A DNA stretch of 6,472 nucleotides from a bacterium (GTDB taxonomy: Bacteria > UBA4055): contig JAKQBN010000004.1 of assembly GCA_029559475.1 (NCBI GenBank), forward strand, positions 1-6,472, given 5' to 3'. Under the pieces are notes generated by a model. That model ran no database searches, was not told the DNA's origin, and worked only from the letters and a program-made list of their open reading frames with translations. Positions 1 to 6,472 of the stretch are shown piece after piece. The position numbers and the translations under genes are program-made. Position 1 is the stretch's first letter. Every line of letters begins with the position of its first letter.

Positions 1-1017
1 AATAGTGAATATGAGATCGATATCATAGTGATCTTAAAAATAATATGGCAGGGCCGGAAACTTATATCTCTGGTCGCGGCCACGTTCATTCTTCTCGCTG
101 TCGCTTATATTTTTATAGCCACTCCGCTTTACCGGAGCAAAATTACGCTTTATCCAACGGGAACAGGCGATCTGAACTCCCCGATGAGCGATATAGCCAG
201 ACAGTTCGGTGTCGCGGGGGTGTCTGAAGGATCAGGTAACTACAACATCCCTGATATAGCTAAAAGCCGCTCTCTGTCAAAGCGGATCGTGACGCATGAA
301 TGGCAGATAAAGGGCTACGATAAAAAGATCACCCTTCTCGACTATTTCAACGATATTTATGGTGAAGAGAAACCGGATTACGTACAGTCTGAACAGGACG
401 AAAAGGAATGGCGCGAAGACCTGATAAACAAGTACAGCGAATATATATCGGAGAAAAGGATAAGCACGAGCGAAGATGAGGATACAGGGCTTATCAAAGT
501 ATTTGTTGACATGGAGGATCCGGTGCTTGCGAGGGATATAGCGAACTACGTTTCCCTCTTCGTCACCAACTGGGTGAACGAAAGCCAGAAGGAATCAGTT
601 AAGGAGAATCTTGCATTTATCAACAACAGGGTCGATCTTCTTTTCGGCGAACTTCAGGCGGCAGAGGATGAACTGAAAAAATTCAGGGAGAACAACAGGA
701 ACATACTAAGTTCGCCCGACCTTCAGCTCGAGCTTCAGAGGCTTATGCGCCAGGTGTCCATCAAGCAGGAGGTTTACTTGACGCTTGTAAAGCAGAAAGA
801 GCTGAACCAGATCGAAGAGAACAAGAACATCAAGGTCGTCAGGATACTCGACGACGCGATAATCAAGCGCAAGCCCCACAAGCCCGATAAAGCTGTCATT
901 CTGCTTCTGTCGGTGATAATAGCTCTGCCTTTCGGATCTCTGCTCGTAATAATGAATTATTTTCTAGATTATAAAAAAATGATCGTCGGGGTCATTTCTT
1001 CAAAGAAGAAGGACTGA
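1..1017 (+). CDS. wzz: Wzz-type polysaccharide chain-length regulator, 5' end cut by the window
   Basis: This is a polysaccharide co-polymerase of the Wzz/FepE/Etk type, an inner-membrane protein that sets the length of chains built by Wzy. The frame is open from base 1 and its first residues, NSEYEIDII, resemble the acidic cytoplasmic N-terminus usual before the first membrane helix in Wzz proteins. I therefore treat the gene as starting outside the window. The GTG at 28 has no ribosome binding site and is probably internal. Counting from base 1 there are 338 residues: membrane helix 1 at about 21-41, a periplasmic domain, a charged coiled-coil stretch at about 192-272, a proline-bearing segment KRKPHKPDKA at 289-298, and helix 2 at about 298-321 with a short Lys-rich tail. 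No Walker motifs of a fused tyrosine autokinase are present. It is the only plus-strand gene and its 3' end overlaps the convergent polymerase gene by 26 bases. Family assignment is firm; the polymer it controls is inferred from the neighbours. Confidence 0.9.
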   Translation, partial: NSEYEIDIIVILKIIWQGRKLISLVAATFILLAVAYIFIATPLYRSKITLYPTGTGDLNSPMSDIARQFGVAGVSEGSGNYNIPDIAKSRSLSKRIVTHEWQIKGYDKKITLLDYFNDIYGEEKPDYVQSEQDEKEWREDLINKYSEYISEKRISTSEDEDTGLIKVFVDMEDPVLARDIANYVSLFVTNWVNESQKESVKENLAFINNRVDLLFGELQAAEDELKKFRENNRNILSSPDLQLELQRLMRQVSIKQEVYLTLVKQKELNQIEENKNIKVVRILDDAIIKRKPHKPDKAVILLLSVIIALPFGSLLVIMNYFLDYKKMIVGVISSKKKD

Positions 1018-1029
1018 CATCCGGTTTTT
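991..1029. terminator. Possible weak bidirectional terminator in the wzz/wzy convergent overlap
   Basis: A 6-base inverted repeat (TTCTTC at 996-1001, GAAGAA at 1005-1010, loop AAA) lies where the two convergent genes overlap. It is flanked by a second, partly matching arm pair, GTCA at 991-994 and TGAC at 1015-1018. A run of five T follows on the plus strand at 1025-1029. On the minus strand a run of seven T corresponds to A973-A979. The stem is AT-rich and the T-runs are not directly adjacent, so termination would be weak. The call rests on position and symmetry only. Confidence 0.28.
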
Positions 1030-2263
1030 CAGTATTCCTGTTAGAATAAAGAACGGGCATCGTAATAAAGAACGCAGTAAATAATGTACCCACATATCCC
1101 ATCGTAAAGAACGATGCGCTCTCGAAAGTCATATAAACGAAAAGCGCGATATAAGCAGAAAAATATACCGATGAAGGGTCTTTGTCGAAAGAGCGGATGT
1201 GCATTAGCCTGTTCAGTGTGAAACCGAATATCCCGAAATGCATTATTAAGTCTGCAAGACCTCCTCCGATCAGGGTCTCGACATAAAAGGAATGAAATTC
1301 CTTTAAATTGAATCCGAGCTCTCTTATAATGTCGACGCTGCTCAGGTAGCCTATGCCGAGAAGCCAGCTGTTATGATTAAGAACGTCAAAACCGGTCAGC
1401 CACAGAATGTCCCTGTCGCTCATGCCCACGTCGCTTCTTATGAGCATTCCCACGATGAAAGTTATGATCCTTTTATTCGACACCGCCAGAATTATTACTG
1501 TAATAAAAGACGCCGCGAGTACGATGTGCGAAGGTTTGATCTTCTTCTTTAGAAATACGAACATCAGGACGCAGAGGAATATCAGAGCGGAAGCCGTAGC
1601 CGTCCTGGAAAGCGTGATTATAAGGTTGATAAAGAAGAAAACATACGCGAAAAGAAGAAATCTCGAATTTTTCTGCACCCATAAAAAAGTACAGGCGACG
1701 ATCGATATGAAAAGAAGCTGTCCGAAAGTGTTCCTGTTAAAGTAGAAAGATGAAAAATTGAGAGTGAAAGGATTGTTGAAAGTGAGGATCTTCATTATGT
1801 CGGAAAAATTCACGATGAAATTGTAAAAGCAGGCTATAACGGATAAGATTACGATGGAAAGCATGAACCGGTTGAATGCCTCTTTTGATATCTTAAGTCC
1901 GGCGGGTATGCACAGGAACAGGAACACGCTCAAGAACCTAGATATAACGTTGATGATGTCGAAGAAATTTATGCTCGAGACTATCGATGAGCGCAGCACA
2001 GTGACGAGCTGGAACACGGAAAATATGAGGCCGAACGCTATATATCTCCAGTCGGTCTTTCTCTCCGTTGCCGATATGAAATATATGGTGATGACGAGGA
2101 CCTGAACGCCGAACATCGCTCCGACGAGGATCTGATAGAGAAAAGTCTCGAAAAGCGACGGCAGGGCTACTGAAACGAGCATAATAGGGAACAGGCCTAA
2201 AAGAATGCTCCAGAATAGTATCTTCGCATACCCGTCGTGATATTGCTTTAAGAGCGAGCTCAT
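992..2263 (-). CDS. wzy: O-antigen/polysaccharide polymerase, Wzy-like membrane protein
   Basis: This 423-residue protein is strongly hydrophobic, with about ten or more predicted membrane segments spread over its whole length, as in Wzy polymerases and O-antigen ligases. These enzymes join lipid-linked repeat units on the periplasmic face of the inner membrane. Supporting motifs are FNRNTFGQ (175-182), LSRTA (218-222) and a hydrophilic loop at about 276-330. That loop carries SDRDILW (282-288), LGIGYLSS (302-309) and EFHSFYVETLIGGG (322-335), the Arg/His-bearing pattern typical of the large periplasmic loop of this superfamily. Sequence conservation is low in this family, so ligase against polymerase is decided by context: a Wzx gene directly upstream and a Wzz gene next to it. 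The ATG overlaps the stop of the flippase gene as ATGA (4 bases), and GGTGA lies 7 bases upstream as a ribosome binding site, which points to translational coupling. The short hydrophilic tail overlaps the wzz 3' end. Confidence 0.85.
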   Translation of the reverse strand: MSSLLKQYHDGYAKILFWSILLGLFPIMLVSVALPSLFETFLYQILVGAMFGVQVLVITIYFISATERKTDWRYIAFGLIFSVFQLVTVLRSSIVSSINFFDIINVISRFLSVFLFLCIPAGLKISKEAFNRFMLSIVILSVIACFYNFIVNFSDIMKILTFNNPFTLNFSSFYFNRNTFGQLLFISIVACTFLWVQKNSRFLLFAYVFFFINLIITLSRTATASALIFLCVLMFVFLKKKIKPSHIVLAASFITVIILAVSNKRIITFIVGMLIRSDVGMSDRDILWLTGFDVLNHNSWLLGIGYLSSVDIIRELGFNLKEFHSFYVETLIGGGLADLIMHFGIFGFTLNRLMHIRSFDKDPSSVYFSAYIALFVYMTFESASFFTMGYVGTLFTAFFITMPVLYSNRNTEKPDVSPSSLKK

Positions 2264-3480
2264 TTAGTTGTCACCGGCTTCATAAGGCGGAGATATACCC
2301 CGAACTGTACGGCTCTCGAAAGACATACCGCCCAGGCGAATCCCGTGATCCCCCAGTAATAGCTGAAGATCAGTATGCTGACAAGGAATACGGCCACATA
2401 GACCACATTGGCGTAAAGGAATTTCTTAATGCTGTAGAACCTGATGATAACAGTTCTCACCAGATAAGAAACGATCGAAAGAGATGATGCCAGCGAAACG
2501 GGGATTATCAGAATGACGGCATTATCGAAATACTGCGGATATAAAAGCAGGACCGCCGCATAAGTCAAAACAGCTGAGAACACGGCCGCAGCCGCGAGCA
2601 GCGGGAATATCAGCCTGAACAGCATGCCTGTGATCCTGGGGCCGCTGCTGTCGTCCTTTTTCGAAATGACGGACAAAGCGTAGCTCGCGACCGGGTTATT
2701 GATCATGCCGAGGATCTTCGACATGGCGGACGCGCTGTAATATACTGCCATCGGCGCAGCTCCTAAGAGCGGATATATTATCAGCCTGTCGAGATAAATG
2801 ATCAGGTTCGTCATAAGTGATACTGCTCCGAGCTGTCCGTATTTTTTCACTGACTGTCCGAATTCATCCGTGAAGGTCATGTTGATCAGTCTGTCTTCAT
2901 CTCTCAGGCGGAAGAAAAGAACGGCGAGCATGGCGGCGGTCTCTCCCGCTGCGAAAGGCGCGAGAAAATATCCGTAACTGATCGCGGCCCAGATCCCGGG
3001 AAGCGATCCGATGCAGTAGGCCAGAGAAACCATGAAGATCTGAAAGAAGCGCTTTTCTAGCCTGAACGATGACATCGCGAAATATCGTGTGATGCCTAAT
3101 GAGCCAATAAAGCAGAATGTTATTATATCGGCAGGAGCAATGCCTGCGGTCAGACCGGTTATGATCAGCAGAACGGCACAGGATATCAGAAGCAGAGCCA
3201 GAGCGGGATGGAAATCGCCCGTCAGACCTTTCTCTTTATACCTGGTGTAAAGCACCATCCTGGTATTGCCGAGTTCATCGCCGACAGCGATGCACAGCAT
3301 ATTAAAGACCGTTATGAAAATTATTATCGACGAGAATTTCTCATCGCTGCCTGAGATCCTTGCGAGTAAAGGCATTATGACTATCTGCGTCATCCCTATA
3401 TAGATACCGAAAGCCAGGATGTTGTAAAGGCCGTCCTTTACTCCTGATCCGCCCGTATATTTATTTCTGAATAGATTCAT
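2260..3480 (-). CDS. wzx: Wzx-type polysaccharide flippase (MOP superfamily)
   Basis: This 406-residue protein has about twelve hydrophobic segments and the layout of the polysaccharide transporter branch of the MOP exporter superfamily. It would flip undecaprenyl-diphosphate-linked repeat units to the periplasmic side. The cytoplasmic N-terminus GGSGVKDGLYNILAFG (10-25) resembles the start of helix 1 in this family. The half-way helix contains YLDRLIIYPLLGAAPMAVYY (229-248), with the Asp-Arg pair and following small-residue turn common at helix 7 of Wzx proteins. The 406-residue length is slightly on the short side. Its first 20 bases overlap the end of the LicD gene, and its stop overlaps the polymerase start. 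No strong Shine-Dalgarno sequence is seen before the ATG (only an A-rich stretch), so translation probably depends on ribosomes finishing LicD. Lipid-linked repeat unit specificity cannot be read from the sequence. Confidence 0.87.
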   Translation of the reverse strand: MNLFRNKYTGGSGVKDGLYNILAFGIYIGMTQIVIMPLLARISGSDEKFSSIIIFITVFNMLCIAVGDELGNTRMVLYTRYKEKGLTGDFHPALALLLISCAVLLIITGLTAGIAPADIITFCFIGSLGITRYFAMSSFRLEKRFFQIFMVSLAYCIGSLPGIWAAISYGYFLAPFAAGETAAMLAVLFFRLRDEDRLINMTFTDEFGQSVKKYGQLGAVSLMTNLIIYLDRLIIYPLLGAAPMAVYYSASAMSKILGMINNPVASYALSVISKKDDSSGPRITGMLFRLIFPLLAAAAVFSAVLTYAAVLLLYPQYFDNAVILIIPVSLASSLSIVSYLVRTVIIRFYSIKKFLYANVVYVAVFLVSILIFSYYWGITGFAWAVCLSRAVQFGVYLRLMKPVTTK

Positions 3481-4285
3481 AACTTTTTTCGGTATCCCAG
3501 TATAGCGCGTGGACCGAAGAGTCCCTCATCTCTTTCGGAGGCACTCTCATATAGTCGCCGTACCTGAGTTCAAGGTATTTTTTTATGTTCTTCGGGCACA
3601 TCAGCATAGTATCTTCGAATTTTATCTCACCGTGACCGTCGAACAGATCGCTGCAGAATATACCCTGTTTAAAATTCGCTTTCGTAATGAAATAGCACCA
3701 GACGAAATCCTTATCGAGTCCGTCGTATTTATAGATCAGCCTGTACGAAAATTTTGAAAGCAAGCTTACAGGAAGTATTTTCAAAAGCAATAGCGCAGCT
3801 TTCTGAAATGAGCTCTTCGGTTTCCAGTTCCTTTGCGAAAGAGCAGCAAGGGTAACGAATTTCGAGCAGTAATAAACCGCTTTCTGAATGAACTTCGTCT
3901 CCGGACATTTATGCAGTATCATTATGTCGATGTAGATCCCGTGATGCATGTCTTTTTTGTCTTTATACACTTCCTCGATAAAAGCCGTGCCGTTCATTCT
4001 GACCTTGGCGTATTCAAGATAACCTTCAGTTATGCTCCATTCCTGAAGGACGAACCGCGGGTCGTTCTTGTCATAGAATGCGCGCCTGAACTTATCAAAC
4101 TGATCAAATGTCATGAAAATATCGAGGTCGTCATCCCATGGAATAAATCCGCCGTGCCTGACGGCCCCGAGCGCAGTTCCGCCCATAATGAAATACTCAA
4201 TGCCTTTTTCGCGGCACAGAGAGTCCGTGAATTTCATGATCTCGAGTATTTTCAGCTGAACGTCGCGGACGGATTTTCCGGTCAT
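3461..4285 (-). CDS. licD: LicD-family phosphotransferase
   Basis: This 274-residue protein belongs to the LicD family, nucleotidyltransferase-fold enzymes that move a phospho-alcohol (phosphocholine in Haemophilus and pneumococcus; ribitol phosphate in the related eukaryotic fukutin/FKRP proteins) from a CDP-linked donor to a glycan. The signature is complete at the N-terminus: an amphipathic helix VQLKILEIMKFTDSLC (9-24), GGTALGAVRHGGFIPW (35-50), then the metal-binding cluster DDDLDI (51-56). The length is normal. There is no signal peptide, so it should act in the cytoplasm on the lipid-linked unit. The gene follows the NodB-fold gene after a 10-base gap. A weak AGG that shares bases with the preceding TAG stop is the only ribosome binding site candidate. 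Its likely donor-making partner is the cytidylyltransferase two genes upstream. Which alcohol is transferred is not known; phosphocholine, glycerol phosphate or another CDP-linked group are all possible. Confidence 0.9.
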   Translation of the reverse strand: MTGKSVRDVQLKILEIMKFTDSLCREKGIEYFIMGGTALGAVRHGGFIPWDDDLDIFMTFDQFDKFRRAFYDKNDPRFVLQEWSITEGYLEYAKVRMNGTAFIEEVYKDKKDMHHGIYIDIMILHKCPETKFIQKAVYYCSKFVTLAALSQRNWKPKSSFQKAALLLLKILPVSLLSKFSYRLIYKYDGLDKDFVWCYFITKANFKQGIFCSDLFDGHGEIKFEDTMLMCPKNIKKYLELRYGDYMRVPPKEMRDSSVHALYWDTEKSYESIQK

Positions 4286-4295
4286 ACAACAAAAC

Positions 4296-5129
4296 CTATA
4301 TTTTTTTCGCTAAATAATAGAATCTGCCCATCAGCCTCTTCATTCCGGGTATTTTTAAAGAGACCTTAGCCGAAGTTCTTATGATCCTGAACGCGGAATC
4401 TTTTACGCATGCTTTTAAAGTACTTTCGTGCCATCTGTGCGGATGCGTGCTGATGATCACAGAACTTTCTCCGGCCGCTTTCAGAACGTTATCCAAAGAG
4501 GGCAGAGGAATATCCTTTTCAGAACTCGGGATAACATCGTTGTTCTCGGGATCATATATGATCTTCCAGCCGTAACCCGCGTCGGAAATATATTTATAGC
4601 CGGCTCCGATCCTGCTTCTAAAATTCACCATTATCTCGGAGATAACGCGGAAGCGCTCCGCAGTTCCCGCGTCCCTGAAAAGGTCGCGGTTCGACGAATA
4701 CCCTTTTCGTTCGACCACCGGATTCCCGTGCTGGCAGACGGTCGTTACAGTAAAGCCGCATTTTCTGAATTTCTCAGCGTTCTTTTCGAATTCGTCAGCA
4801 GCTCTGACAATATCGCCTCTGCACTGGTCCATCACATCGTGATGATATGACACTTCATGCCCGAGAGATTGTATATTTTTTAAAATATCAATATTCTTTT
4901 CTGAACAGAGCAGGTAAGCCTGAACGTAATAGACGCCTTTGTGACCGTGTCTGTTCTCGATGTTTGCCATCCGCAGGGCTTTTGCGGGATCCGTCTCCAC
5001 GTCATGCTTTAGAACGAGAAAGCGAGTAAGAGGTTTTTCTTTAAGAAGGAATGATGGCTGAACGCTATTAATGCCGGCGTTTTTAAGACCGATACAGAAC
5101 TTTTCCCACTGACTGAATATAAACGGCAT
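4296..5129 (-). CDS. Polysaccharide deacetylase-like (NodB-fold) protein
   Basis: This 277-residue protein looks like a divergent member of the NodB/carbohydrate esterase 4 superfamily, whose enzymes remove acetyl groups from sugars using a metal bound by one Asp and two His. The first metal motif appears as LKHDVETDP (40-48), with D43 in the place of the usual catalytic Asp pair. The second appears as GHEVSYHHD (90-98), where H96 aligns with the first His but the His expected four residues later is M100; H97 or D98 may substitute. A late STHPHRWH (227-234) fits the C-terminal His motif. Similar variants with KHDV or RHDV and a GHE-x-x-x-H motif are found in O-antigen clusters (WbmS-like group), where the function is mostly inferred. 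No signal peptide is seen, so it would act in the cytoplasm before export, unlike classical secreted deacetylases. Its start lies one base after the stop of the cytidylyltransferase gene. Activity is uncertain. Confidence 0.72.
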   Translation of the reverse strand: MPFIFSQWEKFCIGLKNAGINSVQPSFLLKEKPLTRFLVLKHDVETDPAKALRMANIENRHGHKGVYYVQAYLLCSEKNIDILKNIQSLGHEVSYHHDVMDQCRGDIVRAADEFEKNAEKFRKCGFTVTTVCQHGNPVVERKGYSSNRDLFRDAGTAERFRVISEIMVNFRSRIGAGYKYISDAGYGWKIIYDPENNDVIPSSEKDIPLPSLDNVLKAAGESSVIISTHPHRWHESTLKACVKDSAFRIIRTSAKVSLKIPGMKRLMGRFYYLAKKI

Positions 5130-5130
5130 T

Positions 5131-5562
5131 TTATCTGCCGTAGATCTGATTTAGGACTTCTTTTAAAAGCGTTGATGAAATGTGACTGGTGTAGGGGATG
5201 TATTCAACGCACCCGCCGTGATCGCGCATATATCTGTCGGTATGTTCAAAAACTTCGCTTCCTTTCCAGTCGTCGCCAACGAACATTACGTCGAATTTAT
5301 ATTTATCAAAAGCGGCAATTTTGTCTCTTGTTTCCTGCGGAACTACCTCGTCAACATACCTGATCGCCTCGACGATCGCTTTTCTTTCTTCGTAGCAGAT
5401 CACCGGCTTCTTGTTCTTATAACTCTGCACAAGTTCATCGGTGCTGACCGCGACTATCAGATATTCGCACTGCTCCTTAGCTTTCTTCAAAAGGTTCAAA
5501 TGCCCTATGTGGAAAAGGTCGTAAACACCTGAGGTGTAGCCTTTCTTATATTTTTTTTGCAT
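5131..5562 (-). CDS. TagD-like cytidylyltransferase (CDP-alcohol synthesis)
   Basis: This 143-residue protein is a small nucleotidyltransferase of the HxGH class, close in size to glycerol-3-phosphate cytidylyltransferase (TagD). It would join CTP and an alcohol phosphate to give a CDP-alcohol and pyrophosphate. The nucleotide-binding segment is GVYDLFHIGHLNLLKKAK (12-29) with HIGH at 18-21. A conserved GDDWKGS segment follows in the second half, and the C-terminal signature is YTSHISST (124-131), standing where TagD has RTEGISTT. The Arg-to-Tyr change is shared, to my memory, with a TagD-related subfamily found in surface polysaccharide clusters; the His in place of Gly looks less usual. It most likely supplies the CDP-linked donor for the LicD protein two genes downstream. 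The start codon lies inside the last 17 bases of the glycosyltransferase gene, preceded by GGGA, and codons 2-4 contain an A8 run. The substrate (glycerol phosphate, phosphocholine or other) cannot be fixed from sequence. Confidence 0.85.
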   Translation of the reverse strand: MQKKYKKGYTSGVYDLFHIGHLNLLKKAKEQCEYLIVAVSTDELVQSYKNKKPVICYEERKAIVEAIRYVDEVVPQETRDKIAAFDKYKFDVMFVGDDWKGSEVFEHTDRYMRDHGGCVEYIPYTSHISSTLLKEVLNQIYGR

Positions 5563-6433
5563 GGAACATCCCGATAGTTTTTTTTATTATTTTCTTCCTC
5601 GCGAAATTATGGAACACGAAAGCCCTTAACCTGTTCGGCATAAGCACCTGAAGTACGTATCTTATGGCGACATTGTGAAAGTAGACGGGATACGATATTA
5701 TTCTGTTGTCGAGCATGTATTTCTGGATCCCCTTTTCGCTTTCGTAGTATTTTCTGCCTCCCCTTCTTTCATAGGTATCTTCAGTGACCCTTACCATCAC
5801 AAGGCTTTCCTTGATGTTTTTGAACTTGAAGCCTTTCTGAAACATCCTTATCCACAGATAATAATCCTCGTCGCAGTACCAGTCCTGATAGCCTCCGGCA
5901 TCAGTAACGTCTTTAAGCCGGAACATTACGGTCATCTGATTGAAAGGACATCTGAATTTCATATAGCGTTTTATCGCTTTATCATCTTCAGGGATGTCCC
6001 TGATGCCGATCACGTTGTCAGGTGTTCCGATGAATTCGCTTATGTCACTTCCAACTATACTCAGTTCCGGATCATCCGCGAAGCAGGCGAGTTGTTTTTC
6101 GAACCTGTCGGGAACGCAGATGTCATCGGAGTCCATTAGTGCGACGAGCGGACGCGAGCATTTTTCAAGTCCGGACCTTCTCGCTATTCCGTGACCGGAA
6201 TTCTTTTCCAGTCTTACCGATTTGAAGAACGGGTACTGTTCGAACCTTTTTATCTCCGCATCGAGCTTTTCCGGTACAGGACCGTCCACCGTCAGTATAA
6301 TCTCGTCCGGCTTTACGTTCTGTTCTATGACGCTTTCGACCGCTTCTCTAAAGTGGTCAGGATCGTCTTAGTAGTAAACGCACATCGCAACGGAAAAGCC
6401 GCCCGAAATGCTTTTATTATCTTTATCATTCAT
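5546..6433 (-). pseudogene. Family 2 glycosyltransferase interrupted by an in-frame TAA
   Basis: The frame from the ATG at 6433 to the TAA at 5546 encodes a GT-A fold family 2 glycosyltransferase of 295 codons, which would add a sugar from a nucleotide donor to the growing repeat unit at the cytoplasmic membrane face. The N-terminal strand FSVAMCVYY (13-21) is followed by TAA at codon 22 (6368-6370). The frame then continues as DDPDHFREAVESV and EIILTVDGP, a textbook continuation. Later motifs are the metal-binding MDSDD (100-104), the GGY at 180-182 and the acceptor-side DEDYYLW (188-194). A gene caller would restart at the GTG at 6289, giving 247 residues, but that product lacks the first strand and helix of the donor-binding fold and has no ribosome binding site. 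Upstream of the ATG an AGGAG at 6446-6450 sits 12 bases away, rather far. The 3' end overlaps the cytidylyltransferase gene by 17 bases. A sequencing error would restore a normal enzyme; otherwise the gene is a very fresh pseudogene. Confidence 0.83.
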
Positions 6434-6472
6434 AAAATTTCAGCACTCCTCTCCCCAAAGCGCTAAATATAA
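6426..6472 (-). CDS. Possible 3' end of an upstream operon gene
   Basis: A minus-strand frame is open from the right edge of the window and ends at a TGA at 6426-6428. Its last visible residues read IFSALGRGVLKFYE. The stop would overlap the glycosyltransferase ATG by 8 bases, which matches the overlapping style of the other junctions in this operon. Only 14 residues are visible, no family can be assigned, and a second frame reading LYLALWGEEC also stays open for part of this stretch. The call rests on operon packing. Confidence 0.33.
   Translation of the reverse strand, partial: IFSALGRGVLKFYE
6446..6450 (-). promoter_or_regulatory. Ribosome binding site candidate for the glycosyltransferase
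   Basis: AGGAG on the minus strand is the best Shine-Dalgarno match in the right-hand part of the window and supports the ATG at 6433 as the original start, rather than the GTG at 6289. The 12-base spacing is longer than the usual 5 to 9, so initiation may be inefficient. It would lie inside the 3' end of the possible upstream gene. Confidence 0.45.

Follow-up and report, generated by a model that had tools for sequence, protein, structure and literature searches.

A premature stop codon in the first glycosyltransferase gene of a surface-polysaccharide operon held in two diverged versions by a draft bacterial assembly

Results

The stretch of DNA analysed here (the window) is the entire contig C59, 6,472 bp in length, of a draft assembly of 2.28 Mb in 83 contigs that is 91.9% complete and 1.25% contaminated. 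A surface-polysaccharide operon was found on its minus strand. The first gene (5546-6433) encodes, according to its translation, Pfam match and homologues, a family 2 glycosyltransferase and contains one internal stop; its last 17 bases are overlapped by the start of a cytidylyltransferase-like gene (5131-5562, minus strand, PF01467). These are followed on the same strand by an open frame without a Pfam match which, read from the protein, perhaps encodes a polysaccharide deacetylase-like protein (4296-5129), a LicD family gene (3461-4285, PF04991), a gene for a multi-spanning membrane protein which has no Pfam match but, from its context, is a probable Wzx flippase (2260-3480), and a gene of the Wzy/O-antigen ligase family (992-2263, PF04932). 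A Wzz chain-length determinant gene (1-1017, plus strand, PF02706 and PF13807), cut by the contig end, faces the operon. The weak purine-rich sequence GAGAGGAG (6446-6453, minus strand), 12 bases from the ATG of the glycosyltransferase gene, is a possible ribosome-binding site. A second copy of the locus is present on contig C83 (see below), and the sequence upstream of this copy leads into a divergent gene on contig C76; therefore, the flanks on C83 and C76 support the position of the glycosyltransferase gene at the head of the operon, as claimed in an earlier note on this DNA. A weak promoter-like match was seen at C83 125-153, but such matches occur at near chance expectation. Judged from the sequence, a polar effect of the stop, with reduced expression of the downstream genes, is possible.

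Translated from the ATG at 6433, the minus-strand frame comprises 295 codons and a terminal TAA at 5546. The sole internal stop of this frame is the TAA at 6370-6368 (codon 22), which is flanked by VAMCVYY and DDPDHFREAVESV and stands right after the first beta-strand motif FSVAMCVYY (residues 13-21), as seen in the translation and the homologue alignment. The 273 codons 3' of the stop are open and match PF00535 with an E-value of 4.7e-19 (69.4 bits, cut-off 23.3). The motifs DSDD (residues 101-104) and ED were read from the translation downstream of codon 22, and DSDD and FSVAMCVYY share one frame with the stop in between. A second stop or a frameshift was not found in the window copy of the gene. 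The earlier note had described a family 2 glycosyltransferase with a single in-frame stop at codon 22, whose remaining 273 codons are clean and keep the catalytic motifs, and this description is confirmed by the translation and the Pfam match. The protein resembles PF00535 members in its core sequence match, its DSDD motif and the conserved residues of its nearest homologues, but an active member requires an uninterrupted gene and the C59 copy is interrupted by the TAA at codon 22. The nearest solved relatives by sequence are the chondroitin synthase structures 2z86/2z87, a weak match (E 7e-6) that is silent on the sugar transferred.

The homologue alignment comprised 17 sequences from genome contigs. 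Codon 22, which we take to be the position directly following the first beta-strand of the glycosyltransferase fold, lies within the homologous region of all 17; every one of them continues through this position and none starts after it. The residue found here is Lys in 11 of the 17 homologues, Gly in three, Asn in two and Ser in one, and the sister copy on C83 also has a Lys codon. The expectation that homologues mostly carry Lys at codon 22 was thus borne out, and homologues with a start after this codon, named in the earlier note as evidence against its reading, did not occur among the 17. After the stop, the frame next offers GTG (codon 49) and ATG (codon 100) as start codons, and a ribosome-binding site was sought at both and found at neither. 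Restart there would lose the first strand and the first helix and, from what the fold family suggests, would not be expected to give an active enzyme. A later genuine start was ruled out, since the first strand is kept in homologues and no downstream start has a ribosome-binding site. TAA closes 168 of 293 long open frames in the sampled assembly and is the commonest normal stop; therefore, it is not reassigned. An intact allele of the same locus was searched for in related genomes, as had been proposed, but none of those examined has the locus and the best protein identity was 44%.

The whole window (1-6472) recurs, collinear and with 84.9% identity, at 147-6615 of contig C83. In this copy one base is deleted at position 337, right after TVDG and ~ 30 codons past codon 22, which leads to a frameshift. 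The two copies therefore bear different lesions in the same glycosyltransferase gene. Within the C59/C83 alignment, away from its ends, the only gaps are the C83 deletion and one of two bases that falls between genes. C83 1-141 and C76 2944-3084 are identical, and this exact overlap of 141 bases is as an assembler using 141-base words would leave it; three frames on C76 were named from reading the proteins, one of them as UDP-glucose dehydrogenase-type. C59 starts within six bases of the end of the overlap, and the layout of C83, C76 and C59 looks like an assembly-graph branch between two versions of the locus. Around the stop the copies are nearly identical: over the 77 bases at 6415-6339 of the window they differ at two positions only, both in codon 22, and silent divergence is 0.06 in codons 8-36 (window 6326-6412, one of 17 silent sites changed) compared to 0.91 after. 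The end of the contig may be chimeric, or the copies may recently have exchanged sequence here, but two more blocks of equal similarity are present elsewhere in the alignment, so that the near-identity is not decisive.

Between C59 and C83 the glycosyltransferase gene has a dS of 0.755 and a dN of 0.058 (39 nonsynonymous differences at 705 sites), corresponding to a dN/dS of 0.076. This value lies within the range of the neighbouring genes (0.04-0.11), which amounted to 0.040 for the cytidylyltransferase, 0.107 for the deacetylase-like frame, 0.090 for LicD, 0.082 for the flippase-like gene, 0.063 for Wzy and 0.042 for Wzz; per-gene dS between the operon copies was 0.6-0.93. From the 17 homologues 52 family-conserved columns were obtained, and 45 and 44 of them are kept in the two copies; the departures are the same seven in both copies, plus one gap at the C83 lesion. 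These data point to full constraint on the glycosyltransferase for essentially all of the divergence between C59 and C83. Since dS is high and dN/dS is low, both copies would have been functional almost until now and the lesions would be very recent or errors, which is in line with the earlier note. An old pseudogene is ruled out by the dN/dS and the conserved residues. As in a young pseudogene, the lesion lies inside the conserved part, through which 17 of 17 homologues continue, and decay is little (dN/dS 0.076). By its sequence the premature stop appears genuine, and it would be either very recent or a local sequence error.

In 460 kb sampled from the assembly, a codon-usage scan looked for stops that lie in frame between two stretches of coding-like sequence. 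Fourteen candidates were obtained: 12 were gene junctions by eye, one was ambiguous and the TAA at codon 22 was the sole clear one. An ambiguous TGA flanked by coding-like sequence was noted at position 4584 of L066 (minus strand); it possibly marks another interrupted gene or else a normal gene boundary. Frameshifts were scanned for more crudely; of the seven candidates, the C83 deletion is one and several resemble gene junctions. Since the codon 22 TAA is the only clear premature stop in 460 kb, it is neither a chance pattern nor a general assembly fault; a generally poor assembly is ruled out by the rarity of the lesions. The rarity of both lesions favours, a little, a common cause, be it selection or local assembly trouble.

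Direct or inverted repeats were sought in the window at 5900-6472, which includes only 39 bases 5' of the ATG, and none were found. In C83 1-700 an AT-rich palindrome (129-156) and one 15-base inverted pair were detected and taken as chance. Neither a repeat tract nor an invertible element, as expected of a phase-variable contingency gene, was thus found at or before the gene, and a switch by slippage or inversion was rejected, as no repeats lie at the lesion in the window.

Discussion

The explanation that we favour, though with only slightly more confidence than doubt, is a recent null allele of the first glycosyltransferase gene of a Wzx/Wzy-type operon; the draft assembly contains this locus in two diverged versions. 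Translation from the ATG at 6433 would yield 21 residues only, too few to complete the sugar-nucleotide-binding core, and, as far as the sequence tells, no downstream start with a ribosome-binding site would provide a usable enzyme, so that the enzyme would be lost. The polysaccharide would then lack one sugar or would not be made, and translation of the downstream genes might drop. The sister copy in the assembly has its own lesion in the same gene, and the null alleles are best read as sitting in a mixed population or a duplicated locus. The null allele is subject to the caveat that the stop is located ~ 105 bases from the end of a short, duplicated contig, where consensus errors are likelier.

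The chief competing reading is that the TAA is an error of consensus or assembly, made where a contig with weak support ends and where two diverged versions were assembled together, with the gene intact in the organism. We give this reading appreciable weight, although we hold it to be the less probable one: the whole window is a 6,472-bp contig duplicated at 85% on C83, the C83 lesion (position 337), like the stop in C59, is near an end, the exact overlap of C83 and C76 is as at an assembly-graph branch, and protein constraint is otherwise full. Against this, the 460 kb scanned yielded no further clear premature stop, and, if the assembler worked with 141-base words, every such word should come from real reads. 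That an active protein is still made, by readthrough of the stop, recoding or a later start, is highly improbable. Coding constraint on both sides of the stop would fit it but is accounted for by recency, and it is opposed by TAA being the commonest normal stop, by the sense codon in the sister copy and the homologues, and by the loss of the first beta-strand and helix from any later start.

The earlier note had also suggested a natural switch of surface antigen. Two known systems bear on this, wbeT, which encodes a methyltransferase, and the O-acetyltransferase gene wcjE. Loss of the single gene by scattered mutations is reported to change the serotype, from Ogawa to Inaba in V. cholerae O1 for wbeT (PMC9927444) and in pneumococcal serotype 11E for wcjE (PMC4072641). 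The likeness is that a small lesion puts a single gene out of action and spares the remainder of the polysaccharide locus, and that different lesions strike this gene independently. The difference is that in wbeT and wcjE a methyltransferase and an O-acetyltransferase are concerned, with serological effects reported in many isolates, whereas the present gene encodes a glycosyltransferase and is known from the sequence of one draft assembly. By analogy, the lesion, if real, would belong to a class of event that is already known.

It seems to us improbable that the surface antigen is turned on and off by a reversible or selected switch, with the stop as one of its states. Different lesions disrupt this gene in the two diverged copies, few such lesions occur in the assembly, and serotype change by scattered mutations in a single sugar-modifying gene has a precedent in the reports cited above (PMC9927444, PMC4072641), which by analogy would suit a switch. 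However, neither a direct or inverted repeat nor a homopolymer tract is present at the window lesion, and, as each copy has about seven genes, chance would place a second lesion in the same gene in about one case of seven. The natural switch was not upheld: in addition to the missing repeats, no intact allele of the locus was found in the related genomes searched, and the sister copy has its own, different lesion, which indicates an ordinary gene-loss allele (or an error) and not a new kind of switch. A bolder version, which we consider unlikely but less so than the switch, is that, in independent events, the first glycosyltransferase was lost very recently from each of two diverged versions present in the same population, which would suggest that selection has repeatedly favoured loss of that sugar, and perhaps its regain. 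If both lesions are errors, they are a caution that broken genes in short duplicated draft contigs should not be read as biology without reads. If both are real, an uncultured bacterium would provide a natural case in which one sugar transferase has been lost repeatedly and very recently, by the same route as antigen change in known bacteria.

The doubled locus fits two strains or species with one stray contig as well as a real duplication; probably, the bin is a mixture of two strains or contains the locus in duplicate. A diverged second copy of a 20-kb stretch of contig C47 was not found, and C59/C83 was the only doubled pair >400 bp among the sampled stretches. Therefore, the doubling is local or partial, and a genome-wide doubling at 85% is ruled out. 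Plasmid relatives were not found. Contigs C2 (1-151) and C68 (1-150) start with the same 150 bases, 98% identical and with a tRNA gene inside, another sign of a repeat or strain branch.
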